This document shows, piece after piece, positions 23,928 to 43,518 of a stretch of DNA of 64,000 nt (position 1 is its first letter; every line of letters starts with the position of its first letter). Source of the DNA: Streptomyces sp. NBC_01296 (GTDB lineage: Bacteria > Actinomycetota > Actinomycetes > Streptomycetales > Streptomycetaceae); assembly GCF_035984415.1 (NCBI RefSeq), contig NZ_CP130720.1:8308001-8372000 (forward strand), given 5' to 3'. The notes below the pieces were generated by a model. It saw only the letters and a list, made by a program, of their open reading frames with translations, was not told the DNA's origin and ran no database searches. A program made the position numbers and the translations under genes.

Positions 23928-24201
23928 GGAAGAGCGGACTCGGGGCTGGATGACCACTGGGCGCGTGTCTCGTGAGACATGGCGCGGTCTGGAGAACGAC
24001 GGGCACCGGCCGCCGATGTGGACCCGCCGCGGGTCACTGGGCCGGGGCGGTTTCCTCGACCTGGTGGCCGCTGCCGGGCGCCGCAGTAACCAGAGCGGGT
24101 GAACGGACACACCCGATGGGCCCCCAGTCGCTCCGCGTCGCGGCCCTCCCGTCTGCGGCGCGGCTTACGGTCGGGATGTGCGTACCCGCGAGGAGACCGT
24201 C
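23928..24201. other. leader region of the giant operon
   Basis: This 274-base gap must contain the promoter of the four-gene operon. I see a short perfect inverted repeat CGGGTG-aacggaca-CACCCG at 24096-24115 that could be an operator or small hairpin, and a TACGGT box at about 24167. No convincing minus-35 partner is visible. No gene is present. Confidence 0.4.
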
Positions 24202-27200
24202 GTGAACCCGTTCGACGTCGTGCTGACCGGTGTCGCGTACGTGCCCGGCGATCCCTGGTTCCTCGGACTCCGCTGGCAGGCAGGCGACGGCACCCCCGCA
24301 CCCGCCTACCGCGAACGGGGCGGGACGGGCGCCCCGGGCAACTTCCCGTACGCCACGCAGCTCTTCTCGTCCGCGGTTGCGGAACCCCGGTACGCCGTCG
24401 GTAAACCGGTCGCCGCCGACGGCGACACCAGCGGGACATGGGACCAGAAGCGGGCCGGCTACACGCTCAAGCCCGGCAGCCAGTACTGGATCGCGGTCGT
24501 CGGCAACCCGCCGTCGATGGCCTCCAACACCGTCGCGGTCCTCTGGCAGCCGCCGTCCTTCGTCTCCGTCACGTGCGACGGCACCGCGCTCGACGTTGCC
24601 TGGGCACCGGGCGGCGCGGGCGCGACCGGGGCGGTCGCGACGCTCACCGCGGGGGGCGCCGAGGTGTGGCGCGGCTCCGCGGCTCCGGCCGCGCCATCGG
24701 CCGCCGCGGTGGCATCGCGCTTCGACGTGGCCGGCGCGCCGCTCGCGCTCGCACCCGGCACGCTGACGCTGACGCTGCGTCCGACCGCGACCGACGCGCA
24801 CGCCGTCTCCACCGGGCCCGCCGCGGTCGCCACGGCGTACACGCACCCGCCCGTCGTCCTGACGACGGCCTACGCCTCGGGCAGCGCCGTGACCGGTCTC
24901 AGCTACGCCGCCGAGGTCGCCCCGGCGGGCAACACCGGCCTCCAGTACGCGGTCACCCTCCTCGACGGACGCGCACGCCTGGCCGGGCCAACGCTCGTCA
25001 CCGCCACACCGGACGGCGACACCGCCGTGCTCAACGTGGTGGTACCCCGCGTGCCGAGCGGCTCGCCGCTCGCGCTCGTCGTCGCCGCGGCCGACCAGGT
25101 CGCAACGGGTCCGGCGTCGGCGCCGTTTCCGCTCCTGGCCGTCGCGCCGTCGGTCGAGGAAGCGGTCTGCGCAGTCCCGGGCACGGTCGAGCTGCTGCTC
25201 CGTTCCCCGACGGGCGCCACGTTCGTCACCGTCACGGAGGCCGAGGTACCGGTCGCCACTGCCGTCGTCGAAGGCAGGACAGGCCGGATCGACGTCCCCG
25301 CCGGCACCGGACCCTACGCCGTCACCGCAGCCGCCGTGGCCGGGGCGGCGACCGGCGTACCGGGTGCTCCGGTGCCGCTGCTCACCGCGCATCCGGTGCT
25401 GGTGTCCGCCGCGTACGACGGCACGACCGTCACCGCGCGGTGGACCGAGCCCGCCGGGTCACCCGCCGCCTACCGGCTCCGTGTCCTGTCGGGTGGCGTC
25501 GTGGTCGCCACGGCGCCGGCAGGCAGTACCTCCGGCGCCGTCGACGTCCGGGTCGACGGCGAGCTCGCCGACGGCCGGCTCGTCGTCGACGTAACGGGCG
25601 TGACCGGACCGGTTGTCGGGCCTGCGTCCGGGCCGCTGCCCCTCGTCACCCGGGCCCCGCGGGTCACGGCCGCGGCCACCGACCCTGCGACCGGGACGAC
25701 GGCCGTCGCCTGGCAGGCGACCACCGGCGCCACCTCCTACCTCGTACAGGCGTTCCGCGACGGGCTCCGTGACGGCGAGCCGCGCACCGTCACCACGCCG
25801 TGCTGCGATGTCACCCTCACCCCGGGAGCGGACGCCGCGATCGCGGTCGCGGCCGTCGTGAGCACCACCACGACGACGGTCGCCGGCCCCTTCGGCGACC
25901 CGTACCCGCTGCCGACGGCGCAGCCGGTGGTCTCACGGGTGGCGTTCGACGGCGCCGACGCAACGGTCTCGTGGCTCCCGGTCGAGGGCGCCACCGGCTA
26001 CCGCGCCACCGCGCTCGCCGCCCGGTCGGCCGGCTCCGGCAGGGCGCCGGTGGGCGCCACCGAGGTGACGTTCGCGGTCGACACCATGGCCGGCGGCGAC
26101 TACACCGTCGTCGTCCAGGCGCTGCGCGGGGCGGACGCGGGACCGCCGTCGCCCCCGGTGCCGCTCGTGCCCGAGAGCTGGTTCCTCTCGGCCGGGCCGG
26201 CCACGACGGCGTACCCGTACGTCTACACCTCCGCCGGCGTCGCCCCCGCAGCAGGCGATGTGACCGTGGCCCTGCCCGGCCTCGGGACGTCGTTCACCGG
26301 GCCGGTGGAGAAGGACGCGTTCCGGGTGGACGCGAGCGGACGCACACTGACCGTCCGTGCGGTGCCCTTCACACCCGAGGCGGTGCGCACCACGCTGCGC
26401 GAGGCGTACGCCGCGTTCCTCACCGCCGTGGAGGAGAAGGGCGCGGACGCGGTCGGAGTCGCGCTGCTCCAGCAGGCGGTGTCCCGTGCGATGCCCCAGA
26501 CGTTCGCCGAAACGCTTTATTACGCCTACGGCCTCGACGCCGACGCCGGGTACGTCGACCTGCGCCCCGGCGTCGTGCTCCGTGTGGCGTTCGCCGACTA
26601 CGTCAATGCCGGCCAGTCCGCACCGCCGCTCTACGTCAACGGCTGGGTCGGCACCGGCCACGCCGATTACGACGTCACGCCGTGGACCGCGGCCGACGGC
26701 AGGCGGCTCGCCCTTGACGCCTTCCTCGCGCAGCTCGTCGCGACCGGCGCGTTCTCGGTCGGCGCTCCGGCCGGCAGCGGCAACGTCGTGAGCGGGCTCG
26801 CCGACGCGGCGGACCTGTTCGGCGTCGTCGCGCCCGCACGGTACTTGCGGCTGTTCGCCCCGGAGCGGCTGGCCGCGGCGGACGCCGTCGGGACGGCGAG
26901 GACGAGCTCCGGGTTCGCGATCGCCGCCGCCGGCTCGTGGGCGGCCATCGAGGCCGCGGGGCGTGACCCGGGCCCTGGCTGCCCCGCCGTGGACTTCCGC
27001 GGCCGCGCCGTTCTGCGCGCGTGCGTGCGCGTGTTCGTGGACGGGGCCGAGGCCGTCGTGCCGATCGGCACGACGGTGGGCGACATGCTCGCGCGCCACG
27101 GCCGCCGCCCACCGCACGGCGCCGGCCGCGCCACCGGCGTCGCCCTCGACCGCGCGACCGGTCCGATCCCCGTGAACGGCGGCTACGACGTCGCCGCCTC

Positions 27201-27303
27201 CCGCCGCGTCCGCTTCGACTGGGAGGGACTGGCGGAGTACGGCCCCGGCCTCGACGCGTTCTCGCTCCCGCTGCTCGCCGGCGACAGAGTGACCACGCGA
27301 TGA
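24202..27303 (+). CDS. giant-operon protein A: tandem FN3-like repeats plus beta-grasp-like C terminus
   Basis: A 1033-residue protein. After an N-terminal domain (residues 1-110) come about six fibronectin-III-like modules starting near residues 113, 212, 312, 396, 483 and 571. The best show the shared pattern HPVLVSAAYDGTTVTARWTE / APRVTAAATDPATGTTAVAW / QPVVSRVAFDGADATVSWLP. Residues 656-930 form a unique domain (VDLRPGVVLRVAFADYVNAG, LYVNGWVGTGHADYDV). The last 100 begin with VRVFVDGAEAVVPIGTTVGD, which looks like an SLBB or ubiquitin-like beta-grasp domain. I see no signal peptide, membrane segment or catalytic motif. The GTG at 24202 lies six bases after GAGGAG. Its stop overlaps the next ATG. 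I know of no named family; a structural or binding role is inferred. Confidence 0.85.
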   Translation: MNPFDVVLTGVAYVPGDPWFLGLRWQAGDGTPAPAYRERGGTGAPGNFPYATQLFSSAVAEPRYAVGKPVAADGDTSGTWDQKRAGYTLKPGSQYWIAVVGNPPSMASNTVAVLWQPPSFVSVTCDGTALDVAWAPGGAGATGAVATLTAGGAEVWRGSAAPAAPSAAAVASRFDVAGAPLALAPGTLTLTLRPTATDAHAVSTGPAAVATAYTHPPVVLTTAYASGSAVTGLSYAAEVAPAGNTGLQYAVTLLDGRARLAGPTLVTATPDGDTAVLNVVVPRVPSGSPLALVVAAADQVATGPASAPFPLLAVAPSVEEAVCAVPGTVELLLRSPTGATFVTVTEAEVPVATAVVEGRTGRIDVPAGTGPYAVTAAAVAGAATGVPGAPVPLLTAHPVLVSAAYDGTTVTARWTEPAGSPAAYRLRVLSGGVVVATAPAGSTSGAVDVRVDGELADGRLVVDVTGVTGPVVGPASGPLPLVTRAPRVTAAATDPATGTTAVAWQATTGATSYLVQAFRDGLRDGEPRTVTTPCCDVTLTPGADAAIAVAAVVSTTTTTVAGPFGDPYPLPTAQPVVSRVAFDGADATVSWLPVEGATGYRATALAARSAGSGRAPVGATEVTFAVDTMAGGDYTVVVQALRGADAGPPSPPVPLVPESWFLSAGPATTAYPYVYTSAGVAPAAGDVTVALPGLGTSFTGPVEKDAFRVDASGRTLTVRAVPFTPEAVRTTLREAYAAFLTAVEEKGADAVGVALLQQAVSRAMPQTFAETLYYAYGLDADAGYVDLRPGVVLRVAFADYVNAGQSAPPLYVNGWVGTGHADYDVTPWTAADGRRLALDAFLAQLVATGAFSVGAPAGSGNVVSGLADAADLFGVVAPARYLRLFAPERLAAADAVGTARTSSGFAIAAAGSWAAIEAAGRDPGPGCPAVDFRGRAVLRACVRVFVDGAEAVVPIGTTVGDMLARHGRRPPHGAGRATGVALDRATGPIPVNGGYDVAASRRVRFDWEGLAEYGPGLDAFSLPLLAGDRVTTR

Positions 27304-30300
27304 CCGCCCCCGCGTTCGTCCGCGTCGCCGACGGCCTCTACGAGCTCTCCTCGGACGCAGACTCGCCCGTGGCCGGGTACTGGGCCGGCTACCGCGCGAA
27401 GGGAGACCTGCCCGACCCCGCGACGCTCGACGACGTGTGGCGCGACGCCGGTGGCGCGTACGTCTTCTGCACGGCGAAGCCCGCGGCCTACCCCCCGTTC
27501 CTGGCCGGGGTCGACCAGGTGCTCGCCCAGCTGCCGTACACACGGTTCGTGTGGATCGCCGATCCGGACGGTGACCCCGCCTATTGGCAGCTGTGGAACC
27601 TCACCGCCACGTCGACGGGGAGCGGCCCGGCCATCGTGTGGACGGTCCGGCAGGGCGCGTCCTTCGGCTGCGGGGGCTACGCCGTCACGGTGCCGCGCGG
27701 CACGGCGCTGACCCGGGCGACGGCGGGCGTCGCGTTGGCCGCGGCATCGTTCGACGGGCCGGACGGCACGGTGTACCACACGGCGCCCGGAAGCGCGGGC
27801 ATCCCGTTCTCCGGCCCCGCCGTCGGCTGCCTGACCGGCACGCTGACACTGGAGCACGCCGACCCCGACGACATGGCGCGCCTCGACGTCGGCCTGCGCT
27901 ACTCCATGCCCGACCCGAACGACCCGAGCCACGCCGCAGTGCTCGCCGTTCCCATGCCGCTGCTCGCACAGGACGGCAGGGCGCTGACGGTGTACCTCTC
28001 GTTCGACCCGCTGTTCCCGCTGGTGCCCGACCGCTCGGCGCTCGGGTTCTTCGCACCAGACCCGCCCGACGCGCCCGACCCGCCGGACCTGCCCGCGTTG
28101 CGGTCCCGGCTCGCCACGACGCTCGGCGCCGAGGTGACGCTGGCTCCGGTCCCCGGGACGCCGCCGCAGTGGCCCGCGCGGCTGGTGTTCGCCACCAGCC
28201 CGCGCGTCGTCGACGCCCCGTCCGACCCGCACGTGTACCTGACCCCGGACGGAGCGTTCCGGCTCGCCGTCGAGGCCGAGGGCAGCACACGGCTCTCGCT
28301 CGGCCTGTCCGGCCTCGAGTACGTGGACGTCGGCGACGGCGTCATCGCACTGTTCCAGTCGGGCCACCCGGCGTATCTGCCCGGCACGGGTGACGCGGCG
28401 CTGGAGCCGCTCGGAACCACGGCGTACGTCGCCCTGCTCCCCGACACCGCCGCGGACCTCACGTACTACGCGCAGCCGTGGCAGTCACCGCTGTACGCGC
28501 GGGCGGACGACACCGAGTTCCTCCGGTTCCACGAGATGCCCGCGGCGACGCTCGGCGACTTCGCCGACGGAGACCCACCCGTCGTCCCGCTCGGCGCGTA
28601 TCTCGGCGTCGACCCGGCGCTGGCACCGTACGCCGCCACGATCGAGCAGGCGGCCCTCGCGCCGGTGCGCCGCGCGAACCTGCCGGTCCGCGACGCGGCC
28701 AAGGGGCCGACCGGCGAGGACACGGCGCTCGCCGTCACACCGAACGGCCTGCTCGCCAGGCTGTCGGCCGACGGCACGGCGTGGCGGCAGGCCGTCCTCG
28801 CCGGCCTGCCCGGCGCGCCCGTCGACGAGCTGGTGCTGACCGCCGTGGGCCCGCGCCTGCAGGCGCTGCTCCAGTCCACCGAGGCGTTCGCCGTCGTCTC
28901 GGACGTCACGGAGTTCTTCCGGCAGTCCTCGGTGCGCTACCGCGTCGACGAGGTCGTGCGCGCCCTGCTCCTCGCGCGGGGTGTCCCCGCCCCGGTCGTC
29001 CAGGCGGTCGCCGACGCGGCCGGGCCGGACACCTACGACACCGAGGAGGCGTTCACCGCGCAGGTCGCGGTAGCGGCCGGCGCCTACCTCGACACGCTGC
29101 TGTCCGTCGCCGGGCTGCTGAAGGCGGTGCTCCAGGACTGGACGTTCCAGCTCTCTCCGCGCTCGTGGCGCACCGGCGGGGAGGGCAGGACGGTGCTGCT
29201 GGTGAAGTTCGCCTCCCGCTCGCTCACCGACCTCGCCGCGGACCTGCCCGCCTGGGGCTGGCCGGAGGCCGCGTACGACGAGCACGGCGACCCGCGGCCC
29301 ACGCAGGAGCTGGTGCTCGGCGTCATCGAGGACGCCCGAGAACGCGCGGGCGTCGACCCGGGCGGACCCTACGCGCGCTTCCTTCGCGAGGTCGCCGACA
29401 ACCCGGCGTGGAACGGCGTCCTCGTCCTGGGCGCCCCGGTCGCCGTAGCCGAGCTGCCGCGCGAGCTGCAGTTCGTCACTGCGGGCATCGACACCGGCCG
29501 GTTCTACGCCCACCACGTCGGGTTCGGCGTCACGCCGTTCGAGCGCACGGCCGACGGCGGCATCACGCTCGGGCAGACCGCGGCGTTCGGCCTGATCTCA
29601 TACGACGACCCGGCCGACCTCTATGTCGAGCCGGGGCAGCTGGACTTCGCGTTCAAGACACAGCAGCTGTCGGCGCGCTTCGCCAACGCCGCCCTGGCCG
29701 ACTTCTCCGCCCGCGTCGAGCTGATGACCAACCGGCTGTTCGGGTCCCTGCTCACCAAGCGTGCGCCGGAGAGCGGCAACAACCTCGTCCTCCTCGGGTC
29801 GTACCAGCGGCAGAACGACAGGCCGTCGTACGCGTTCACGCTCGCCGGCGGCGCCGACTTCGCCGCCGGGAATGCGGTGCTGCTCGGCGTCGAGGTGCTC
29901 GGCGTACAGGTGCAGACGGCCACGGGGTCGATCGACGCCGGGACGCTGGCCGTCGACTTCGTCCTCACCGGCAACCTGCGGTTCGCCGAGCTGCCGCACG
30001 CCGACCTGTTCTCCTACGGCCCGAACGCGGCGCTCCCGCCGCCCGGCACGCCGGCGTTCGACGGGTACCTGCGGTTCGGGAACCTCGTCGTGACGATGGC
30101 CTTCCCCGCCGCCGATCCCGGCGCGCAGACGTTCACGACGGCCTATGACCGGATGTCGTTCGACCCCGCGAACAGCGAGGCCCGCGTGCAGTCGCTCACC
30201 AGGGGCTTCCCCGTCCGTGTCACCGGCGCCGTGGCCAACCCGGTGCCCGACCCTCCCGGCGGGCCGCGCGGGCGGACCCCGGAGGACCTCGGTTACACCG

Positions 30301-30803
30301 GAGTCCTCTCGCCCGTCGACGCCGTGCTGCTGTCCCCGCCGTGGTTCGGGCTGGTGTTCACCCTCGACCTCGGCACCCTCGGCGCGTTGGCCGGCAGCGC
30401 AGGCATGCACGCCACGCTCCTCGTCGGCTGGTCGCCCGGGACACGCGACGAACGGCCGGTGTACTTCGGTCTGCGGCTGTCCGGCGCCGACGCGACAACA
30501 GCGACCTGGCCGCTGCAGGGCGTGCTCAAGCTGGGGTTCCGCGGCTTCGAACTGACGACGTACGAGGAGGGCGGCAGGCGCGAGTACCTGATGCGGCTGC
30601 GCCACCTCGCGCTGTCGGTCTTCGCGTTTTCCTTCCCGCCCGGCGACCTCGACGTGCTGGTCTTCGGCGACCCGGAGGGCAGGAGCTCCGCGGTCGGCTG
30701 GTACGGCGCGTACGACTCCGGAACGCAGGCGAAGGCCGCACGGCGCAGGCTCGCGGCCGGCCGCCGCCTGGCCTTCCCCGAAGAGAACGGGTTTCAGGCA
30801 TGA
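27300..30803 (+). CDS. giant-operon protein B: 1167-residue beta-rich protein of unknown family
   Basis: Starts at an ATG overlapping the stop of gene A (ATGA). The N terminus reads PAFVRVADGLYELSSDADSP. The protein is dominated by beta strands with Gly/Asp turns (ALTVYLSFDPLFPLVPDR, RLVFATSPRVVDAPSDPHVY) and has one clearly helical section near residues 537-620 (YRVDEVVRALLLARGVPAPV). The C-terminal 400 residues alternate hydrophobic and polar residues in long sheets (LQFVTAGIDTGRFYAHHVGF, GVEVLGVQVQTATGSIDAGT, HLALSVFAFSFPPGDLDVLV). No signal peptide, membrane helix or enzyme motif is visible. Part of its C terminus resembles in style the beta-rich region of gene D, so the two may share an architecture. 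Function unknown. Confidence 0.85.
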   Translation: MTAPAFVRVADGLYELSSDADSPVAGYWAGYRAKGDLPDPATLDDVWRDAGGAYVFCTAKPAAYPPFLAGVDQVLAQLPYTRFVWIADPDGDPAYWQLWNLTATSTGSGPAIVWTVRQGASFGCGGYAVTVPRGTALTRATAGVALAAASFDGPDGTVYHTAPGSAGIPFSGPAVGCLTGTLTLEHADPDDMARLDVGLRYSMPDPNDPSHAAVLAVPMPLLAQDGRALTVYLSFDPLFPLVPDRSALGFFAPDPPDAPDPPDLPALRSRLATTLGAEVTLAPVPGTPPQWPARLVFATSPRVVDAPSDPHVYLTPDGAFRLAVEAEGSTRLSLGLSGLEYVDVGDGVIALFQSGHPAYLPGTGDAALEPLGTTAYVALLPDTAADLTYYAQPWQSPLYARADDTEFLRFHEMPAATLGDFADGDPPVVPLGAYLGVDPALAPYAATIEQAALAPVRRANLPVRDAAKGPTGEDTALAVTPNGLLARLSADGTAWRQAVLAGLPGAPVDELVLTAVGPRLQALLQSTEAFAVVSDVTEFFRQSSVRYRVDEVVRALLLARGVPAPVVQAVADAAGPDTYDTEEAFTAQVAVAAGAYLDTLLSVAGLLKAVLQDWTFQLSPRSWRTGGEGRTVLLVKFASRSLTDLAADLPAWGWPEAAYDEHGDPRPTQELVLGVIEDARERAGVDPGGPYARFLREVADNPAWNGVLVLGAPVAVAELPRELQFVTAGIDTGRFYAHHVGFGVTPFERTADGGITLGQTAAFGLISYDDPADLYVEPGQLDFAFKTQQLSARFANAALADFSARVELMTNRLFGSLLTKRAPESGNNLVLLGSYQRQNDRPSYAFTLAGGADFAAGNAVLLGVEVLGVQVQTATGSIDAGTLAVDFVLTGNLRFAELPHADLFSYGPNAALPPPGTPAFDGYLRFGNLVVTMAFPAADPGAQTFTTAYDRMSFDPANSEARVQSLTRGFPVRVTGAVANPVPDPPGGPRGRTPEDLGYTGVLSPVDAVLLSPPWFGLVFTLDLGTLGALAGSAGMHATLLVGWSPGTRDERPVYFGLRLSGADATTATWPLQGVLKLGFRGFELTTYEEGGRREYLMRLRHLALSVFAFSFPPGDLDVLVFGDPEGRSSAVGWYGAYDSGTQAKAARRRLAAGRRLAFPEENGFQA

Positions 30804-32245
30804 GCAAGATGGTGTTCTGGGTACTCGACGTCGGCCAGGGCAGCGGCAACTTCATCCAGGTCTTCGACGACAGTGACAAGCTCGTCGGCTCGGTGCTCAT
30901 CGACATCGGGTCGAAGAAGAGCAAGAAAGCGGCCGGCGGCCCCTCGGTCAAGACCGTCGCCGGGCTGCTCGGCGACCCCGCCACGCTCAACCTGGTCGTG
31001 CTGTCGCACGGCGACGGCGACCACATCAACCTGATCCCCGAGCTGCTGGACGAGCTCAAATCCACGAAGCTGACGGTCAACAGGGTCTGCTACGGCGGCA
31101 GCCGGATCCGCTACAAGGGGGGCAGCAACAGCGTCCTCAGCCGGCTCGAGGCCCACATGCCCAGCGGAGTCACCACCGAGCCGCTGTCCCCGGGGTTCAG
31201 CTCGTTCACCGCGACCGATCCTCCTGAGCCGTTCGACACGTTCGGCGAACTGGAGGTGTGGATCCTCAAGGCCAACGCCGCGACATCGGACGCGAAGTCC
31301 AGCTCGTCGAGTGACGGCTCCAAAAGGCAGAGGGTCGACGGCGGCTACGACATCAACACCGATTCCGTCGTCGTCCTGCTGGGATTCCCCCTCTCCAAAG
31401 CCTGGTTCGTCGTCACGGGCGACGCGACCGCCACGACCATGTACCAGGTCAACGAGGTGGTGAACGACTCCGTCAAGAAGAAGTACCTACAACATGTTGT
31501 CATGATGACGGTGCCCCACCACGGCAGCACCTCAACGAGCTTCGACGTCCGTGGCGGCGGCGAAGCCACCCTCAAGACCTTCGCCGAGAAGATCGAGCCC
31601 GTCTCCGTGATCGGCAGCGCGGACAAGGTCGGCACGTACAAGCAGCCGTCGGCGAGGGTCCTGCAGTACTTCTGGCCGTACGTCACGGTGGGAGGGCCGT
31701 TCTGGGGGGATCCGGCCATCGGCGGCCGGCACTTCTACACGGCGTACTTCGCCCCGGACGACCACTTCAACTACGACGACGCGGGGACCAAGTACCCCTG
31801 GCCGGCCGACGCGAACTGGTACTCGGTACAGACCGCGTCCGACATCTACACCAACATGTACGTCGACCGGGTGACCGGCCAGCAGGACATCGTGCTGCCC
31901 CCCGACTCGTCGGCGCGCCATACACCGAACACCCCCTCGACGCCGCGCGCTCTCGGCGTGGCGTGGCAGTACACCGTGCAGAAGAACACCGTCACGCTCC
32001 AGCCCGTGGTCAACCGCAAGGACTACGAGCGGATGGTCGCCGCACGCGGCTTCGTGCCGGCCGGGTGGCCCGACCCCGCGACGCTGGGGGACGCACTCTG
32101 GGTCTCGCTGCCGGCGGCTGACACCTCCGCCGCGGCCGAAGCCGGTGCAGCGGGCCCCGCCGCCGCGGCGCCCGAGCCCGCGCCGCCCCGGCGCCCTGCT
32201 CCCACGTCGCGGCGGCCGCTGCCCCGACTGCGGGAACTGCCGTGA
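30800..32245 (+). CDS. giant-operon protein C: ComEC-type metallo-beta-lactamase-fold hydrolase
   Basis: A 481-residue metallo-hydrolase whose family signatures are all present: WVLDVGQGSGNF at residues 7-18, the metal site LSHGDGDHINL with His70, Asp72, Asp74 and His75, the third-ligand strand FVVTGDAT near residue 205, and VPHHGSTSTSF near residue 240. This set is that of stand-alone relatives of the ComEC periplasmic nuclease domain, which cut nucleic acid or other phosphodiesters. There is no competence-type membrane channel and no signal peptide, so it should act in the cytoplasm unless exported with its partners. Residues after about 450 are Ala/Pro-rich. ATG overlaps gene B (ATGA); stop overlaps gene D (GTGA). 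It is the only evident enzyme of the operon. Confidence 0.9.
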   Translation: MSKMVFWVLDVGQGSGNFIQVFDDSDKLVGSVLIDIGSKKSKKAAGGPSVKTVAGLLGDPATLNLVVLSHGDGDHINLIPELLDELKSTKLTVNRVCYGGSRIRYKGGSNSVLSRLEAHMPSGVTTEPLSPGFSSFTATDPPEPFDTFGELEVWILKANAATSDAKSSSSSDGSKRQRVDGGYDINTDSVVVLLGFPLSKAWFVVTGDATATTMYQVNEVVNDSVKKKYLQHVVMMTVPHHGSTSTSFDVRGGGEATLKTFAEKIEPVSVIGSADKVGTYKQPSARVLQYFWPYVTVGGPFWGDPAIGGRHFYTAYFAPDDHFNYDDAGTKYPWPADANWYSVQTASDIYTNMYVDRVTGQQDIVLPPDSSARHTPNTPSTPRALGVAWQYTVQKNTVTLQPVVNRKDYERMVAARGFVPAGWPDPATLGDALWVSLPAADTSAAAEAGAAGPAAAAPEPAPPRRPAPTSRRPLPRLRELP

Positions 32246-35200: not shown

Positions 35201-38200
35201 GCGGCGTCTACTTCGGCGTCCTGAGCGGAGCGACCTCCAGCCGCGTGCCGCGCGTCTCCAACGGCACGTTCGCGCCGGTGCTGGAGCTGGGTGTCGGCCT
35301 GGCCGTCGGCGTCGGCAAGGAGGTGTCGTTCGGACCGCTGTCGGGGGGTGCCTACGTCGAGGTGCTCGCCCTCTTCCAGGGCGTGCTGGCGTGGTTCAAC
35401 CCGACGAGCAGCGGCGCCGCACCCGCGACGTACTACTGGGCACAGGCGGTCGTCGGCATCCACGGCAAGGTCTACGGCCGCATCGACTTCAAGATCGTCC
35501 AGGTCAATGTCACGATCGAGGCGTGGGCCGAGGCGAGCGTCGCGCTCGCGGCGTACCGCACCTCGGTGTTCCGGCTGAACGTCGGCGTCAGCGTCAAGGC
35601 GTCGGTGAAGGTCCTCTTCATCACGGTGTCGTTCTCGTTCAGCGCGCGCATCGACGTCGGCTTCACGATCGGACACGACCGGCCCACACCGTGGATCGTC
35701 ACCGGCGGGCAGTCGGCGCCGACCGCGGCCCTGCTGCGCTCCTTCGTCCTCCCGCCCCTGCGCAGCCCCGCGCGCAAGGCCGCCGCCCTCGCCGCACCGC
35801 GCGGCACCACGGTGACCTGGGATCCGACGACGAAGGTGTTCCCCGACGCTCCGCGGACCGCCGAACTGACGCTCCTGCCGGCGTTCTCCGTCAACGGACT
35901 CGCCGTCGGCTGGGGCGTCACCCCGCCCGCTCCTGCGGCGCCGACCTACCGCGCCGCGCTGCTCCTGTTCGCACCGCTCCACGCGCCGGCGGGCGCGACG
36001 CCGGGTGCCGAACGGCTCGTCGAGGCGTTCCTGCGCTGGTGTCTCGCCGCGGTCACCGGCTCGCCCGGCCACGGACCCGCGACCGTGACGGCCGGCCAAC
36101 TCGACGTACTGGCGAGGACGCTGCGCGACCCCGGGCAGACCGACACGCCCTTCGGCGTCGAGGACCTGGCGACGTTCCTTGCGACCAACCTCCACCTCGA
36201 CGTCACCGGGCGCCCGGCGGGTGAGGATCCGGCCGACGTGGAGGGCATGGTCGTCGGGGTCCCGCCGTTCGTCGCCTGGACCTCACCGCAGGCGCCGGGG
36301 CGCGACCTGGCGGCCTACCAGAAGGTCGGCCCGCTCTACGAGTGGGGGATCGCCGAGTACGCCGCACGCTTCGCCGCGACGCCGGCCCCGCTCCCGGGGA
36401 AGCCCGACGACCCGCTCGCCGCGTACGAATCGTTCGCCTCGTACGTCTTCCGCGACTGGTGCCTCGGACTGGCGCGTGCTGCCGTCCAGGAGGCGGCCGG
36501 CCTGCTGGCCGACTGGACTGTGCCCGCGCCGAAGGCGGCGGTGTCGCTCGCGGACATCGCCTCGCAGCTCCCCCGTGCCACCGTCCCCTACGCAGTACGC
36601 GCCGGCGACACGCTGGACAGCGTCGCCGAGGTGCTCGGAACCACCGCGGCCGAACTCGCCTTCCTCGACCCCGGACTGGCCCATGAACTCGAGCACGCCC
36701 CCGCCGGTACCGTGCTCCAGGTCGAGCTCGGTGTCTGCGTAGAGTCGGTGGCGCTGGCCAACGCGGACTTCCCGCTGACCGTGACCGAACCGCTGCCGCT
36801 GGGCACCGTGGACCACCAGGTCGAGGCGAAGGAAACGCTCGAGGCCGTGGCCCTCCGCTTCGGTGTCGCGGATCCCGACGTGATCGCGCAGGTGCTCGAC
36901 GACGCCGCGCTGCTGCGCGCCGGCGCCGTACTGGAGGTTCCGGCCTTCCGGCTGACGCAGGGCTCGTTCACCTCCACCGTCGAGGCGGCGGCGGCGATGT
37001 TCATGCACTACGTCCCCGACGCCGAGGTCGCATCCCTCGAGTGGTACCTCCAGGCACTCCACCACCTCGACCCCGGCTACACCGCCGGCGGCGGAACCGA
37101 GCTGCAGGTCCCGGCCGAGTTCGGCGACTGGTCGCGCCGGACGACGTACACGACACTGTCCGGCGACACCGTGCGCTCCGTCGCGGCATCGCTCGCGCTC
37201 GCACAGGGCGCCGCCACCGGCGCGGGCGGGCCGCCCGGCTGGCCGGCATTCCGCGACGCGGTGACCTTGACGCCCGACGGCACGTTCGCCATCCCCGCGG
37301 CGACGACCCGGATCCAGCCGCGGGAGACACTCGCCGCGCTCGCCGCGCGCATGGTCGCCTACACCCCCGCAACCGTCGGGCAACTGGTCGCGACCGCCGA
37401 CATCCTGGCGCCGCTCGCGCTGGTGCCGGTGCCCGACGTGGCCGCGACCGTGACCGCCGGCCGTGACACGCTGGCCGCCCTCGCGGCGTACTACGCGCTG
37501 CCGGTGGCCGACCTCGCCGAGCGGATCGCGACCCGGCCGGTGTTCGCACGGACCGGCGACCGAACGGAGCTGCGTGTCCCGCACGTGCCCGCCGTGTCCA
37601 TCGACCAGGTCGTCGCCCGTGTCACCACCGGCGAGGCGATCGGGCGGATCGCCGGGCTGGTGTCGCGCCAACTCCTCAGCGGTCAGCGGGTCCCTGCGCC
37701 GGTCGACGCCGGCGGCGGGCACCGGGCCGCCACCGGCGCCCTCACACCGCTGCACGATCTGACCGGCCAGCAGTTCGACAGCCCCGCGCCCGACCCGTCC
37801 GAACCGGACGCCGTCGCCCTGCGCATCGCCCTCACGTCGGCGGCCGGCTGGCTCGTGCTGCGCGAGTCCGCCACCGCGAACGGTGCGGTCGTCCGCGGCG
37901 ACGTCATCACCCGGCTCACGTTGGAGTTCACCAACGCGGACCTGCTGCGGCTCTACCCGCCGACGGTCATGACGCTCGAGCCGGTCAGCCCGCCCGCGCC
38001 ACTGCCCCTGGGCGAGTCGGCACCCGTCACCTACGGCCTCGACCACCGCGTCGAGCTCCAGTCCCCGATTCCCGTCCCCGTCCCCGGCCGGGACACGACC
38101 GCCACCGGCAACGCGAGCCTGTGGCCGTTCCCGGCAGCGCTGCGTGCCCGCGCGGCGCTGAGCCCGACGACGCCGTACGACGTGGTGCGCACCGCCGCGC

Positions 38201-41200
38201 CCGGTCTCACCCCCAAGCCGGGCGACATCGTCGGGGACTCCACGTTCGCGACGACGGTGACCTTCGGAGTCCGGAAAGTCGGCACGCTCCCGCACGTCTA
38301 CGAGCTCGCCGGCGTGGACACCACCGACCGCGACGTACTGCTCGCGCTCTGGGCGCACCTGGCCGACGGCCACGGCGCCGACGCCTTCCTCGCCGTCGCG
38401 CCGCCGCCCGACGCGTCCAACACCTCGGGGCTCGCGGTACTCGCGGCGGACACCTCGCAGACCTTCATCCTCAAGACGAACGAGTCCACCGAGTCCAAAC
38501 CTCCCTCCGCGGCGCCGGCCGACACCGGCTCGCAGCCCTCTGCGGCTTCGCTGGCCGACGTCGCGGACTTCCTCGTCCTGCTCTGGCAGGGCAGCGTCGT
38601 CGGCGGTACGGGCTACTACCTCCGCTACCGGTCGGCGACCGACGACGACCTCCCGCCCGGCGCGTTCGACCCCGACGGACTGGCCCGCCTGTCGCTGCTC
38701 GTCGTCCTCGACGACCGCGCGGAGCCCGCGCCCGGCGGCCGCACACTGCTGCCCTTCGACACCTGCGCGGTCCTGGCGCCCGGCCTCGACCCGTCGGCCA
38801 CGGCACTGTACGTCGAGGCGGCCGAGCCGGGCGACGAGACCGTCATCGTGCCCGTCGTACCGCAGGGGCTCACCGGTTTCACGACCACGCTGCCGCAGCC
38901 GCCGGACGACGACACGCCCGAGGCTCGAGTCGCGCGGCTGTTCAGCCTCCTGACGTACGACGCCGCGACGCCGCTCGGCGCGTGCGGCCTGCCGGTCCCA
39001 CCGGCGGACAGCGACGGCACCGGCCTGCCCGCATGGCACCGCGACCGCCTCGCAAGGGCCCGGCGCTTCGGACGCGCCGTCACCGAGGCCGCACCGGTGT
39101 ACTGGAGGTTCCAGCAGGTCATCCCCTACGCGCGCACCGCGACCCCGGAGACGGCCCCGGCGGTACCGGGCCTGCCGGACACTGCCGCGGACCCGTATCG
39201 CGGCATCGTCGGCGAGACGACACCGGTCGCGGCGATCACGCTCGGCCTGTGCGACGTACTCGGCAACACGGGCGTCTCGACCGGAGCGGACGGGGCGACG
39301 CCGTACGTCGTCGACGCGCCGGCCGGCTACACCGACGCGCTGCTCGCCGTGACGCAGTGGCCCGCGGTGTCGCTCTCGTACACCGTGGAACCAAGCTCCG
39401 CGGGTCCGCTGCTCACGGTCGCGATCGCTCCGCAGGCCGGCGCCGCGGCGCCGGAGCCGGGCGACTCGGCGGCCGGCGCGATCGAGGCCGCAGCGCGACA
39501 GGCCGAGCGCTACGCGACCGCGTACTACCAGCTCGCCGGTGGCCGGACCGCGGCATCCCTGGTGACGACGCTGATGCCCGGCGCCGACGGCGCGCCCGAC
39601 CCCCTGGCCGTGGACGTGACGCCGCTGTGGCGCTACGCCGCGGCGAGTTTCCTCGCGTCGGCCGCCGCCGCGGCCACCGCACCGGCCACCGCCTCGGCGA
39701 CCGTCGCCCACCTCGTCGCGGCGTACGGCGTCTCGCTGGAAGGCCTCGCGACCGCGAACGCGACCGCCGAGGCCGCCGCGCTCTTCGGCCCGGACGTGCC
39801 CGCCGTCCCCGCCTACGGCGTCTTCGCCGAGGGCCGCAGCGCCGACGACCTCGTCCACGGACTCGCCCCCGGCTGGCCCCACCCGGCGAGCGGTGCGGCG
39901 CTCCTCGCGCTCGAGGAGAACGCGGACCTCCCGCTGCGACCCGCCACCGCGCTGACGATCCCGGCGGCGTCCGTCGCCGTCGCCGACCCCGACGCGCCGC
40001 TCGACGAGGTCGCCGCCGCCGCGCACACCCTCCCGGGGCTGCTCGCCGCGGACAACGCGACGACGCCGGGCGTACTGTGCCCGGGGTTCGTCTTCCTGTG
40101 GGAGGACGCGCCGCTCGAGGTGCCGCAGGAGCCGCCGTACTCCTTCGCCGACGCGGCAGCCGCCTACGCCGCGCTCGGCCACGACGTGGACGTCGCAACG
40201 CTCGCCGCCGCCAATGCCACGCGCCCCGGCATCCTCGACCCTGCCGCCGTGCTCACCTCCCGGCACTACATCGCCGGCGAAGGCGACACACTCGCCGCCA
40301 ACGCCTCCGGCGCGACGAGAGCCAGGCTCGCCGAAGTGAACGGCGACACCGACGACCTGTTCGAAGCGGGCACGCTGCTCTACGCCGGCGACTTCGCGGG
40401 GGTGACGGTGCCGTCCGGGCAGACGCTGCACGAGCTGGCCGACCGCTACGCCTGCCCCCCAGCCCTGCTCCTGGCCGCGAACGCCGCCCACCCGCTCGCC
40501 GACGCCGTGCTGCCCGGCTGCGTCACCGTGCCCGATGCGGTGCGGGTGCCCTACACGCTGAGGTCCGACGACACGCTCGACGCGCTCGGCCCGGCGTTCG
40601 GGACGACAGGGCTCGGGCTGGGAGGCCGCAACGCCGCGATGCCGGGCGTCCTCGCCCCGTACCGGACCGTCTCCGTCGACACCTCGGAGGGACCGGTGGC
40701 CACCGAGACGACCGTCGACGACACCCTCGACGCGGTGTGGCAACGGCTCGCGGCGCAGGGGGAGGTGACGTTCGAGCAGACGGTGGCCGCCGTCGCCAGC
40801 GACGCGTCGTACCTAGCCGACGGTGCACTGCTCGTCTGCGGGCCGGCCGTGCTGGCCGGCAAGGGCCCGGCGGTGACCCCTGCGGGCGCGGCGGCGGCGT
40901 ACGGCCTGGACCCGGTGGCGTTCGCTCAGGCGAACGCCGGTGTCACCGGGCTGGTCGCGGACGGCGTGACCCTGACCGCCGACGGCGTGAGCGTCACCAC
41001 GGGAGCGCACGACAGCCTCAACACCGTCCTCACGCGCTTCGCCGCGGCCGGCGCAGCGCTGACATCGGCCGGCCTGGTGGCGGCCCTGGCGGACGTCGCG
41101 TTCCTGCGGCGCGGTGCAAGGGCGCTGCTGCCGCAGGCGCGGGTCTCCGTCGCCGCGGTGCTGCCCGCCGAACTGCCACTGGCGGACACCACCGTGCCGT

Positions 41201-43518
41201 TCCCCCTATCCGTCGCGCTGCGGCTGGCGCGGCCCGACGTCCTCGTCGACCCCGTGTTCCGGACCGGGGACGGCGCGGGGGCCGCCGAGCGTGCGGACGC
41301 GCCGGTGCCGCCGCACGTCACGGACAGCGGCGAGCCGGGGGAGGAATCGCTGACACTCGCGGCGTTCGAGACATCCTTCAGGGCGGCGTTCCCCCTGCTG
41401 CGGCTCGCCACCGGGCGCGCCCCGGACGGCGGAACCGATCTGTCCGTGGTGGCGTTCACGGAGGGCGGCATCACCGACGTACAGGTCGCGCCCGGCCTGA
41501 CCTGGCAGGAACCGGACGGTACAGTGAGGACGATGCCGCGCGTCTTCGCCCTGCGGCCGCTGTCCAACGAGCTCGTCAGCCGCAGCGGCGTCCCGGTTCA
41601 CGCCCTCGGCCCCGACGGCAACCTCGCCCCCGACGCGACACCGACCGACTTCGACAGCGTCGACGCCGAGGTGTGGGCGCGGCGCCTGCTCGCCGACATC
41701 GACCTGTTCCTCACCGCGGCGTACGCCACCGCCGTACACGCAGACCCCGCGACCGGCGACGCGCTGGCCCGGGTACTCGCCGCGAAACGCACGCTCTCCC
41801 GCGCCGTCGCCCGCGGCCTCTGGCCCGTCCTCGACGTCGCCGACCTCCACGCCGTTCCCGCGCAGGCCGCCGCCGTCGCGCGGCTTGCCGACGAGCTCTC
41901 GGTGAACCTGTCCCGCGCCTACGACGCGGCCGCGCTCGTGCAGTACGACGCCACCGTCGAGCCGCCGGAGAACACCGTGGGGGGACGCCCGGCCCGGCTC
42001 TACGGCACCCTCGCCACACCGCCGGGGGCCTCGTACACCCTGTCTTCGGCGAAAACGGACCTGTCCGCCGCCTCGTCGTACGTCGGGTTCCTCCTGCGCC
42101 TGCCCGATCCGCGCTGGCAGGCGTACGTCCCCGTCGACCTCGACTACGGGTTCCTGGACCTGGAGTACGACGTCGCGGCCGAGCCGCAGATCGGCGGCTA
42201 CGAGGCGTCCCGGTGGCTCGCCTTCTACCCGCCGCTGACCGGCGACGCCAAACCATCGGCGCTGCGGACCTCGCTCGGACGCGCCGACGTGCCGGTGCCG
42301 CTGCGCGCGTACCCGGCATCGCCCGTACTGCTCGGGCAGACGGCCGGCGCGACGTTCGCGCAGGAGCCGCCGACACTCGCCGGCGCGCCGCTGTGGACGT
42401 ACGCCGTCAGCTACGCGCACGAGCACGCGGCGCAGGACGAAGTACGCGTGACCGCGGCCTTCAACGTCACCGTCGGGGCCGGGCCCGCCGACGCGGGCAC
42501 CGACGACGTCATGAGCGCGCTGGCCCGCTACGTCTCGGTCGCCGACGGCCTGTGGTCACTGCTCGCCGGGTACGTCTCGGACTCGGGCGACGGCGCGGCC
42601 TGCGCCAACGCCGCGAGGACCTTCGGCGACCTCGTCCGCCTCGTCGCCGACGCGTGGGACCGCAGATGGCCCGCCGCCGAGCCGGCCGCCGCCCCGGCAA
42701 CCCTCGGTCCGCCCTCGGTGACGCCCGGTCCCGACCTGGTCGAGGTCACCCTCGGCGTGCGGGTCGGCTACACCGTCGAGGACGACGCCACGTACCTCGC
42801 CGCCGTCGAGCTCACCCCGGTGACGGCGTCGCCCGGCCCCGGCGGCGCGTGGCCCGAGGTCGCCTACGTCGATGCCGCGGGCAACACCGTTTCGCTCGTC
42901 CCCGACGCACCGGTCGGCACCTCGCGCACGTACCGGTTCGACCCGCCGTTGCCCGCAACCGGGTGGCCGCAGTTCCGGCTGTGCTGGCCGGGGCTGCACG
43001 TCATGGCGTACCAGAACGCCCGCGCCACGCTCACAGTCCGCCGCAACACCCGCCTGGTCCCCGACGGGCCGCCCACCGACGAGCAGTTCGTGTTCCGCAC
43101 CGCCCCGGCCGTCGCACCCGATGTCGTGACACCGCTGAACGTCTGGGACGAACCGGTCGACCTCACCGCACTGGGCCCGCTCGAGGACGCACTCACCGCG
43201 GCATTCACCACGCTCACCGGCGGGTCCACCGACGCCGGCGCCGCGGTGGGCGTCGGCTACGGCTTCGAGATCCTTCCCGGAATCGACGGGTCGACGGGCC
43301 TCGTGAGCCGGCTGCCGATCGCGCTGGCCCATGTCGTCATGGATCGGTCGACCGGCGCGACGGTCGGGCAGGTCGCGACCGACTGGCTCACGGAAAACGA
43401 CCCGCCCGCCACCCGCGCACGCTTGTTCACGTTCTCGCTCACGCTGTTCTCACAGCTCGACCCGAACGCCGTACAGCCGCTGCTGACGATGCCGCATCTC
43501 ACCCACCGCATCCTGTAA
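32242..43518 (+). CDS. giant-operon protein D: 3758-residue beta-rich protein with LysM-like repeats
   Basis: One uninterrupted frame of 11.3 kb from a GTG overlapping gene C. Residues 1-900 are beta-rich, with recurring strand pairs (VSIPADATDPPGLSLF, LTELSLHFAPTPGTYDLAGA). Residues ~930-1150 form long amphipathic strands (VSVKASVKVLFITVSFSFSA) resembling what I remember as DUF6603, a family shared by fungi and bacteria. A first LysM-like cluster starts near 1449 (VRAGDTLDSVAEVLGTTAAE), 1524, 1635, 1690, 1733 and 1791. A second, more diverged cluster lies near 2488, 2673, 2720 (VPSGQTLHELADRYACPPAL), 2769, 2823, 2876 and 2918. The C-terminal 800 residues are again beta-rich and end GYGFEILPGIDG...LTMPHLTHRIL. 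No signal peptide or membrane helix is seen. LysM binds peptidoglycan or chitin in known proteins; whether these modules do is unproven. Confidence 0.85.
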   Translation: MTPSPQQVYDALVRQRRDGTIDLPAAVAAEPDLAALGPALDLLHAGPTWPVLVGGLTWSARSVDLTGDASYAVPGGTAFTVGVALAYATGDDGGVFALRLATVPGWTFGAAFPTLPPTPVQEGGAVGYRPSFLADLPVSGVVFAATATTGGTAALRLTGAVGAPPLFDAFADFYGPFPLRFDGPVSIPADATDPPGLSLFAASTRQPIVLGPVTLEDFGLRIATELDLDPAFSTQTSYSTVYGEATLRLGSNEPVTGTVSTPLLAMATTWLLNVTFPPDDAPGLGGGLAGIASMLGVPADLLAAPRGLDDFGGFRISEIDLSLLAPSATGGLPALDYVAVVLRSAKRWTPPVPYLTVSDVGMRWLSLWGDGTPSVSGTVFGTLKVGQSDLDRRALAAGRPRVAIGGAAGPSALANPQEPVFSLDVTASFPQFVVTGALSQGEIPLDQALGWLFGVTFPYALDITEFEFEADLQAQTFAGSALVTTDFSVWVGDVEIMLSDVFLQVDALQSGVAGGIIATFVLPGVGPAGSGDAAFAVGASYAPSTAWEFQAELGAGDQLDLVTLVRKFMGEASDNELPSVTLTELSLHFAPTPGTYDLAGAVVGVWRPVILGQPRDLSVGARVAVSRDAEGGVSGSVAGTFSVNKLAVSAGVDFAAKQLAYLLKIQFGDLWVSAATSRRGEDNHQVVSVRLGGVTLGEIIEYLIGLAAPTVKVTLDPPWDILSRIDLSSFVLTVDPTESTVEFTYATTANLGVMSADTVGVRWKRQPDGRATVEMVLTGSFLGQDYPAQRPLSWDLLGGSPPAVPGQGKSLLDLRYLGIGQRVVLRGSYPDTIRDTVARLRADMKPVKPDGNPVGKMPELEFSPDSEWLIGFQAAFLDTLDLSFVFNDPRLYGLAVGLRGERAGSLAGLQFEILYKKISDDIGMFRVELRLPDAFRRIDFGAVSVTVGIVVVEVYTNGDFLVDLGFPHGRDFSRSFSVEVLPFVGRGGVYFGVLSGATSSRVPRVSNGTFAPVLELGVGLAVGVGKEVSFGPLSGGAYVEVLALFQGVLAWFNPTSSGAAPATYYWAQAVVGIHGKVYGRIDFKIVQVNVTIEAWAEASVALAAYRTSVFRLNVGVSVKASVKVLFITVSFSFSARIDVGFTIGHDRPTPWIVTGGQSAPTAALLRSFVLPPLRSPARKAAALAAPRGTTVTWDPTTKVFPDAPRTAELTLLPAFSVNGLAVGWGVTPPAPAAPTYRAALLLFAPLHAPAGATPGAERLVEAFLRWCLAAVTGSPGHGPATVTAGQLDVLARTLRDPGQTDTPFGVEDLATFLATNLHLDVTGRPAGEDPADVEGMVVGVPPFVAWTSPQAPGRDLAAYQKVGPLYEWGIAEYAARFAATPAPLPGKPDDPLAAYESFASYVFRDWCLGLARAAVQEAAGLLADWTVPAPKAAVSLADIASQLPRATVPYAVRAGDTLDSVAEVLGTTAAELAFLDPGLAHELEHAPAGTVLQVELGVCVESVALANADFPLTVTEPLPLGTVDHQVEAKETLEAVALRFGVADPDVIAQVLDDAALLRAGAVLEVPAFRLTQGSFTSTVEAAAAMFMHYVPDAEVASLEWYLQALHHLDPGYTAGGGTELQVPAEFGDWSRRTTYTTLSGDTVRSVAASLALAQGAATGAGGPPGWPAFRDAVTLTPDGTFAIPAATTRIQPRETLAALAARMVAYTPATVGQLVATADILAPLALVPVPDVAATVTAGRDTLAALAAYYALPVADLAERIATRPVFARTGDRTELRVPHVPAVSIDQVVARVTTGEAIGRIAGLVSRQLLSGQRVPAPVDAGGGHRAATGALTPLHDLTGQQFDSPAPDPSEPDAVALRIALTSAAGWLVLRESATANGAVVRGDVITRLTLEFTNADLLRLYPPTVMTLEPVSPPAPLPLGESAPVTYGLDHRVELQSPIPVPVPGRDTTATGNASLWPFPAALRARAALSPTTPYDVVRTAAPGLTPKPGDIVGDSTFATTVTFGVRKVGTLPHVYELAGVDTTDRDVLLALWAHLADGHGADAFLAVAPPPDASNTSGLAVLAADTSQTFILKTNESTESKPPSAAPADTGSQPSAASLADVADFLVLLWQGSVVGGTGYYLRYRSATDDDLPPGAFDPDGLARLSLLVVLDDRAEPAPGGRTLLPFDTCAVLAPGLDPSATALYVEAAEPGDETVIVPVVPQGLTGFTTTLPQPPDDDTPEARVARLFSLLTYDAATPLGACGLPVPPADSDGTGLPAWHRDRLARARRFGRAVTEAAPVYWRFQQVIPYARTATPETAPAVPGLPDTAADPYRGIVGETTPVAAITLGLCDVLGNTGVSTGADGATPYVVDAPAGYTDALLAVTQWPAVSLSYTVEPSSAGPLLTVAIAPQAGAAAPEPGDSAAGAIEAAARQAERYATAYYQLAGGRTAASLVTTLMPGADGAPDPLAVDVTPLWRYAAASFLASAAAAATAPATASATVAHLVAAYGVSLEGLATANATAEAAALFGPDVPAVPAYGVFAEGRSADDLVHGLAPGWPHPASGAALLALEENADLPLRPATALTIPAASVAVADPDAPLDEVAAAAHTLPGLLAADNATTPGVLCPGFVFLWEDAPLEVPQEPPYSFADAAAAYAALGHDVDVATLAAANATRPGILDPAAVLTSRHYIAGEGDTLAANASGATRARLAEVNGDTDDLFEAGTLLYAGDFAGVTVPSGQTLHELADRYACPPALLLAANAAHPLADAVLPGCVTVPDAVRVPYTLRSDDTLDALGPAFGTTGLGLGGRNAAMPGVLAPYRTVSVDTSEGPVATETTVDDTLDAVWQRLAAQGEVTFEQTVAAVASDASYLADGALLVCGPAVLAGKGPAVTPAGAAAAYGLDPVAFAQANAGVTGLVADGVTLTADGVSVTTGAHDSLNTVLTRFAAAGAALTSAGLVAALADVAFLRRGARALLPQARVSVAAVLPAELPLADTTVPFPLSVALRLARPDVLVDPVFRTGDGAGAAERADAPVPPHVTDSGEPGEESLTLAAFETSFRAAFPLLRLATGRAPDGGTDLSVVAFTEGGITDVQVAPGLTWQEPDGTVRTMPRVFALRPLSNELVSRSGVPVHALGPDGNLAPDATPTDFDSVDAEVWARRLLADIDLFLTAAYATAVHADPATGDALARVLAAKRTLSRAVARGLWPVLDVADLHAVPAQAAAVARLADELSVNLSRAYDAAALVQYDATVEPPENTVGGRPARLYGTLATPPGASYTLSSAKTDLSAASSYVGFLLRLPDPRWQAYVPVDLDYGFLDLEYDVAAEPQIGGYEASRWLAFYPPLTGDAKPSALRTSLGRADVPVPLRAYPASPVLLGQTAGATFAQEPPTLAGAPLWTYAVSYAHEHAAQDEVRVTAAFNVTVGAGPADAGTDDVMSALARYVSVADGLWSLLAGYVSDSGDGAACANAARTFGDLVRLVADAWDRRWPAAEPAAAPATLGPPSVTPGPDLVEVTLGVRVGYTVEDDATYLAAVELTPVTASPGPGGAWPEVAYVDAAGNTVSLVPDAPVGTSRTYRFDPPLPATGWPQFRLCWPGLHVMAYQNARATLTVRRNTRLVPDGPPTDEQFVFRTAPAVAPDVVTPLNVWDEPVDLTALGPLEDALTAAFTTLTGGSTDAGAAVGVGYGFEILPGIDGSTGLVSRLPIALAHVVMDRSTGATVGQVATDWLTENDPPATRARLFTFSLTLFSQLDPNAVQPLLTMPHLTHRIL

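Follow-up and report, generated by a model that had tools for sequence, protein, structure and literature searches.

What might a bacterium do with an operon that couples a nuclease-like hydrolase to three giant proteins, and is that hydrolase an integral member of the set? The operon in question lies in Streptomyces sp. NBC_01296 (contig NZ_CP130720.1), within a stretch of 64,000 nucleotides (positions 8,308,001 to 8,372,000, hereafter the window) at 8.31-8.37 Mb of a 9.38 Mb genome of two contigs. We find that A (often), B and D, the first, second and fourth of its genes, form a conserved chassis passed on as one unit in ten phyla, and that the slot held here by the third gene, C, is exchanged between unrelated enzymes whose catalytic residues are kept. 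It is a serious possibility, in our estimate a little short of an even chance, that the operon represents a mobile and modular complex for antagonism (or killing) with an exchangeable enzyme. In window coordinates, its parts are as follows.

24190..24196, + strand: Shine-Dalgarno-like GAGGAGA before gene A (sequence)
24202..27303, + strand: gene A, 1033 residues, GTG start, FN3-like repeats and a conserved C-terminal domain (open frame, profile matches, relatives)
27300..30803, + strand: gene B, 1167 residues, conserved beta-rich protein and putative hub, no family recognised (open frame, library scans, model)
30800..32245, + strand: gene C, 481 residues, ComEC-like hydrolase of the metallo-beta-lactamase (MBL) fold, the window's occupant of a variable enzyme slot (open frame, profile, motifs)
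32242..43518, + strand: gene D, 3758 residues, GTG start, giant beta-rich LysM-array protein (open frame, profile matches)

Reading the frames in the window confirms the layout given in the original prediction, namely four frames of 1033, 1167, 481 and 3758 codons on one strand, free of internal stops and overlapping by four bases at each junction (ATGA at A/B, ATGA at B/C, GTGA at C/D). Their third-position GC content is of coding type (0.92 in A, B and C, 0.93 in D), and the Shine-Dalgarno-like motif ends five bases ahead of GTG 24202, which backs this codon as the start of A; an alternative, longer start is the GTG at 24178. The four proteins had been described as lacking a visible signal peptide or membrane helix, and a simple hydropathy scan of A to D agrees, finding no signal peptide and no 19-residue hydrophobic window above 1.9. 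Since the same gene order is seen again in loci of ten phyla, the arrangement is more than chance. The view that the genes constitute one operon is supported.

A peptide pattern from the D core, scanned against 84,980 genomes, returned 280 stretches, 247 of which are relatives; our locus set consists of the best 80 of these 247, and as all of its loci stem from this single pattern, divergent systems are under-sampled. The 80 loci come mainly from Pseudomonadota (25), Bacteroidota (22), Cyanobacteriota (12), Acidobacteriota (9) and Actinomycetota (7), with one each from Chloroflexota, Vulcanimicrobiota, Bacillota, Verrucomicrobiota and Ignavibacteriota. The D core is nonetheless rare, occurring in 10 of 1575 evenly drawn genomes (4/395, 3/398, 2/386 and 1/396), a figure in which each of the four counts includes its own seed genome (4 of the 10). 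Among relatives of the window's genome, a search with C was positive in 2 of 41, including the genome itself, and in none of 24 congeners. Across 72,556 plasmid records, tblastn recovered relatives of B in 6 records and of the D core in 8, from Embleya, Tistrella, Nostoc, Lysinibacillus, Paenibacillus, Azospirillum and Mycetohabitans; Tistrella mobilis pTM1 has the A-B-C-D order of the window, with D in two pieces. A phage origin was considered and rejected: the window's D core is unmatched in 50,697 phage records, and pattern matches in viral contigs amounted to one of 41 (L089).

Conservation of gene order had been proposed as a check, with scattered, independent genes as the contrary outcome. 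In all 74 loci with enough sequence, B precedes D on the same strand, so that the genes are not scattered; the four-gene set as a whole is less constant, however, as A was recognised in 45 of the 67 loci with enough upstream sequence and unrecognised in 22, and the C position varies. Pairwise distances of the A end, B, D core, D end and MBL correlate with one another (r 0.67-0.92), and for each of the ten pairs none of 300 permutations was as high. The D-core tree, on the other hand, mixes phyla, Chitinophaga for example falling with starred support inside a group of Rhodanobacter and Pseudomonas; L125, G813 and L006, all three counted, sit on very long branches, and G813 was labelled D in one analysis and B in another. 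As the parts co-vary while the tree mixes phyla, the set has been inherited together and exchanged between phyla.

The original prediction had treated the MBL protein as a fixed partner of the three large proteins, and here it fails. In 92 distinct loci (fourteen duplicates of genomes or plasmids fetched twice having been removed beforehand), the slot holds an MBL protein in 35, a DNase I-like enzyme of the endonuclease/exonuclease/phosphatase (EEP) type in 32, a toxin-type deaminase in one, an HNH-like protein in one, and a shared protein without Pfam or PDB match in 2, with no recognised enzyme in 17 and a cut-off slot in 4; the labels EEP in L035 and L041 and HNH in G049 were assigned by hand. 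These contents rule out the MBL as a fixed component. On the D-core tree at least 15 changes of slot type are required, or 6 with MBL and EEP loci alone. Wherever a slot enzyme was recognised it is encoded separately, with no fusion to the carrier C-terminus. An independent record agrees, the Azospirillum lipoferum plasmid AZO_p2 being annotated as B, endonuclease/exonuclease/phosphatase and D in that order. The MBL loci carry one copy in 30 cases, two in 4 and three in one; in five loci (L034/G574, L035, L041, L046 and L052) the EEP gene is found between A and B instead, and some slot enzymes bear signal peptides (the EEP of L034, L041 and L052, by eye, and the MBL of L069).

The catalytic residues of the two main slot enzymes are conserved. 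MBL active-site positions are kept in 42/43 (H), 41/43 (D), 42/43 (D) and 43/43 (H) proteins, and the E, H, D and N of the EEP enzymes in 31/31 each. Three motifs mark the window's C.

31007..31024, + strand: HGDGDH metal-binding motif of C (sequence motif)
31418..31429, + strand: GDAT motif of C (sequence motif)
31514..31525, + strand: PHHG motif of C (sequence motif)

A profile of 22 C proteins has the ComEC nuclease domain as its best PDB match (E 8.7e-19), which supports the nuclease-type component foreseen earlier; the phosphorylcholine esterase CbpE is a weaker match (1.4e-7). Against PADLOC models, C matches LmuA (1.3e-8, residues 9-98 only) and RTasMBL (8.9e-8, N-terminal part); NCBIfam 6A-MBL gives 4e-4, and TIGR00361 only 26.9 of 190 bits, far under its cut-off. 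The EEP profile has DNase I as its top PDB match (E 3.3e-16), with sphingomyelinases weaker (about 3e-5); single members exceed the Pfam Exo_endo_phos cut-off in L028, L039 and L048, and the L074 enzyme has no Pfam match at 0.05. The Lewinella deaminase (L076) passes the cut-offs of Bd3614-deam, dCMP_cyt_deam_1 and MafB19-deam, and the Cellulomonas HNH-like protein falls narrowly below its own (19.9 of 21.4 bits).

The chassis consists of parts (A end, B, D core and D end) that match no family in the libraries scanned, alongside the FN3-like and LysM-like repeats of A and D.

24538..26175, + strand: six FN3-like units of A, residues 113-658 (profile search, each unit at independent E 1.4e-8 or better)
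26119..27300, + strand: conserved C-terminal part of A, residues 640-1033 (alignment A5, 38 sequences)
34669..35763, + strand: most conserved core of D, residues 810-1174, a porin-like antiparallel beta-meander in the model (conservation, model)
36583..37539, + strand: first LysM-like array of D, residues 1448-1766, 5 units (Pfam, iterated profile)
39688..41100, + strand: second LysM-like array of D, residues 2483-2953, 8 units (iterated profile)
41179..43515, + strand: conserved C-terminal part of D, residues 2980-3758 (relatives, alignment)

The FN3-like character claimed for A was upheld: six units emerge when the profile is derived from A and its relatives; Pfam fn3 alone scores 24.1 bits, narrowly below its cut-off of 25. 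The C-terminal part of A has no Pfam match and no PDB match at E 0.1. The LysM-like nature of D was upheld too, with a Pfam LysM match over cut-off in the window's protein (E 4.7e-6) in addition to the 5- and 8-unit arrays, whose units were found with a profile iterated on D proteins; LysM was matched in 9 of 13 full-length D proteins.

B has no match in Pfam, NCBIfam, PHROGs or PADLOC at E up to 1. Its AlphaFold2 model (61 sequences; pLDDT 90.2, pTM 0.78) has no match at Z 5 or more among 994 aligned PDB chains (best VIA-align Z 4.1) and none at E <=0.001 among viral models, although such a missing structural match for a predicted model does not show that the fold is new. A likeness of B to RHS shells reaches Z 3.6 at best and is uninformative, the two Foldseek matches at E <=0.001 are beta-propeller proteins with TM 0.07, and homology to the D core was rejected, profile comparison finding no relation (probability 0.2). 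The AlphaFold2 model of D residues 150-1340 (pLDDT 81.1, pTM 0.45) depicts the core as a meander of strands of about 20 residues each, comparable to outer-membrane porins (Z up to 12.6 for 6ehd, root-mean-square deviation 6.7 over 233 residues) and to ApoB100 (Z 11.7); the best Foldseek match is the Deinococcus S-layer/porin-like SlpA (E 8.1e-5, TM about 0.1). We read the core as a barrel-like, perhaps unclosed, beta-sheet region.

How might these parts work together? The combination of surface-binding modules, a beta-barrel-like region, an exchangeable enzyme and a mobile cassette is our reason for favouring an antagonism complex with a swappable payload, and HINT-like domains of the pretoxin type, below cut-off in upstream genes of some loci, were counted on the same side. 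In such a complex, the FN3 repeats of A would pick out or bridge to a target surface, B would act as the hub linking A, the payload and D, the two LysM arrays of D would bind cell-wall glycans (peptidoglycan or chitin), and the porin-like meander of the D core could help to cross or perturb a membrane. C would then be the payload, a metal-dependent nuclease attacking nucleic acid inside the target cell, and the complex would exit its producer by a route that needs no classical signal peptide, such as lysis. For this system we infer, rather than observe, the assembly into one complex, its exit, target, translocation and toxicity. A bolder version, which we consider doubtful on balance, is that of an undescribed, phylum-crossing delivery machine whose three giant proteins have no relation to phage tails, Tc toxins or known secretion systems and carry a separately encoded, interchangeable nuclease through wall and membrane via the LysM arrays and the porin-like beta-barrel region.

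Several observations weigh against an antagonism complex. Among 108 flanking proteins of 15 loci (108 of 124 prepared proteins were used), compared by their 25 commonest families, there is no recurrent immunity-, secretion- or lysis-like gene, a scan that novel immunity families would escape. The lack of an immunity gene could reflect a target other than sibling cells, shielding of the payload within the complex, or an error in our reading. The low pTM (0.45) and TM (about 0.1) of the D model allow that its porin likeness may reflect a common beta-meander only. A hydrophobic 19-residue window above 1.9 is present in 41 of 90 D frames (relatives plus the window's, which lacks one), and a signal-peptide heuristic was positive in 5 of 89 D frames, judged by eye to be internal strands. 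The slot types cluster strongly on the tree (15 changes, where shuffling gives a mean of 41.6), and exchange has therefore been occasional, not frequent. Moreover, 17 of the 92 loci are without a recognised slot enzyme, and the EEP and MBL families include lipid and choline phosphoesterases, sphingomyelinase and CbpE being the weaker matches noted above.

The original prediction had named a defence or antagonism role among its candidates, which stands as such, and the main rival to antagonism is intracellular anti-phage or anti-plasmid defence, in which B and D would detect or bind an invader and set off the slot enzyme. Exchangeable effectors, MBL proteins among them, are a hallmark of defence systems (e.g. 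Lamassu, AVAST and CBASS), and the resemblance of C to LmuA, RTasMBL and 6A-MBL, the rare, patchy and mobile cassette and the lack of signal peptides in A and B would all fit. Yet the operon lacks any ATPase, SMC, NTPase or nucleotide-signalling component, LysM and FN3 modules are generally found outside the cell, signal peptides occur on some slot enzymes, and the flanks contain no recurrent defence gene, the commonest PADLOC family there being caspase (4 of 108); we consider defence fairly unlikely. The signal peptides on slot enzymes would suit instead a machine at or beyond the producer's surface, with D anchored to its own wall by LysM, that breaks down external nucleic acid or phosphoesters and serves nutrition, biofilm remodelling or DNA uptake. 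Such a role would also agree with the absence of an immunity gene from the flanking proteins and with an MBL nearest to the ComEC nuclease and an EEP nearest to DNase I. It remains unlikely, however, given that a toxin-type deaminase is ill-suited to nutrition, that patchy spread and enzyme exchange resemble conflict, and that A, B and D themselves lack signal peptides.

The deaminase, along with the HNH-like occupant, also counts against a cell-envelope or developmental structure whose enzyme would act on lipids or wall polymers and not on nucleic acids. The sphingomyelinase and CbpE matches, the LysM arrays and the porin- and ApoB-like beta-sheets of D are what such a structure might be expected to show, but the gene set is confined to a small minority of genomes (1 of 25 in the window's genus, by the C search) and is thus not housekeeping, making this explanation distinctly unlikely. 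Finally, the operon could supply a payload or accessory to a contractile injection machine, or another secretion machine, whose genes lie elsewhere in the genome, in line with three sheath-family matches (L126-L128) at 1.43 and 2.0 Mb of the window's genome, which are perhaps a contractile injection system or a phage remnant. We hold this to be very improbable: these matches are more than 6 Mb from the operon, the flanks of the 15 loci contain no recurrent sheath or secretion family, known cargo is far smaller than the chassis proteins, and the set spans ten phyla with and without outer membranes.

Some further features of the window and its relatives deserve mention. The operon's flanks look unrelated, with an MFS transporter and a SnoaL-like protein upstream and, on the 3' side, an M4 thermolysin-type secreted peptidase (44116-46155, - strand) followed by a subtilase-family secreted peptidase (46608-48005, + strand). 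Elsewhere, a protein of about 550-610 residues directly ahead of A recurs across phyla as a 7-member cluster; in its Pseudomonas member a signal peptide was seen by eye and PT-HINT (HINT-like, pretoxin type) matches below cut-off, and its Tistrella member is annotated as Hint domain-containing. Paired small beta-rich paralogues (about 130-160 residues) precede A in L034, L035, L041, L046 and L052; the idea that they are aegerolysins was dropped, having no Pfam support in the one checked (L052 428-916). Loci without A have ahead of B a gene of about 230-300 residues with two beta-sandwich-like halves (a 13-member cluster), for which no family was found. D is split into two consecutive genes in L004, L027, L030, L038, L050, L058, L045 and L124, forms two overlapping frames in L017 (perhaps a frame break), and is followed directly 3' in Mucilaginibacter by a collagen-like protein with GFQGDQG repeats (L066 17522-19654). 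In cyanobacterial loci, 8 of the 17 without a recognised enzyme, two small conserved genes lie between B and D. A 'GT-B-like' label for the slot protein shared by L008 and L073, suggested by a motif, was abandoned, Pfam and PDB giving nothing. Very large caspase-type proteins adjoin the Lewinella deaminase locus (L105 7332-18973, - strand), and a type III-B CRISPR module with several transposases lies just downstream of B-EEP-D on AZO_p2 (L125 23358-28822, - strand). Members of the recurrent classes are listed here.

L110 11288-13111 (- strand), L004 12982-14727, L003 10225-11976, also G045, G046 and G428 (there ahead of B): the upstream cluster of about 550-610 residues
L007 13937-15608, L008 389-1147, also L062, L063, L069 and L085: the pre-B cluster of about 230-300 residues
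L025 3105-7469 (three MBL); L009, L013, L014 and L045 (two MBL); L040 4469-7488 (two EEP): tandem slot enzymes
L064, L070, L072, L081-L083, L086 and L088: two small genes between B and D
L008 4769-8113 and L073 6401-7975: slot protein common to Mycetohabitans rhizoxinica pBRH02 and Pedobacter, with no Pfam and no PDB match

The claim that the gene set is undescribed is supported: neither the literature, preprints not being covered and a recent report possibly existing, nor five model libraries or collections supplied a name. Its interest lies in a chassis whose order is maintained in ten phyla of bacteria, some with an outer membrane and some without, and which moves between them, and in the pairing of a fixed carrier with an exchangeable enzyme slot, a signature of biological conflict. 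Should the system deliver, it would represent a novel type of protein delivery machine whose cargo position is already in place; should it defend, a defence class without the usual ATPase sensor; and under either reading slot exchange makes function directly testable.

Among known systems, the operon is distinct from Lamassu (it has no SMC), from ComEC (no channel) and from contractile injection systems (no nearby sheath). C resembles the MBL-fold effector of Lamassu (LmuA, over residues 9-98 only), 6A-MBL and other MBL-effector defences, but giant LysM and FN3 proteins take the place of the SMC/ATPase partner, and A, B and D have no PADLOC match at E up to 1 that would indicate an SMC-like LmuB. 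With ComEC, a DNA-uptake protein and the best PDB match of C, it shares an MBL domain with the same motifs, whereas C has 481 residues, no membrane channel domain and an operon with giant proteins. The alternative slot enzyme has the fold and catalytic residues of DNase I-like EEP nucleases, differing in 100-300 extra residues and a fixed linkage to the giant-protein chassis. Sheath, tube and baseplate families are absent from A to D and from the 25 commonest families of the flanking proteins.

In logic the operon resembles polymorphic toxins, in which adhesion domains such as LysM occur on toxin polypeptides (Zhang et al. 2012, PMC3482391). Common to both are an exchangeable nucleic-acid-attacking enzyme on a conserved carrier (with the at least 15 slot changes seen here) and shared deaminase families, alongside the HINT-like proteins upstream in some of our loci; the enzyme of the present system is, by contrast, a separate gene and not a C-terminal tip fusion. 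Its carrier proteins lie outside all families scanned, and the flanks scanned yielded no immunity gene, new families of which would have been missed. No Tc, RHS or YD family was found in A to D (Pfam, E up to 1) or in 13 full-length D proteins (E up to 0.1). Tc (ABC) toxin complexes consist of giant beta-rich proteins with a variable enzyme component, presumably without a classical signal peptide. The present operon is like them in its giant beta-rich proteins and its variable enzyme, and presumably in doing without a classical signal peptide, but unlike them it encodes its putative payload as a separate gene and has LysM arrays and a porin-like core instead.
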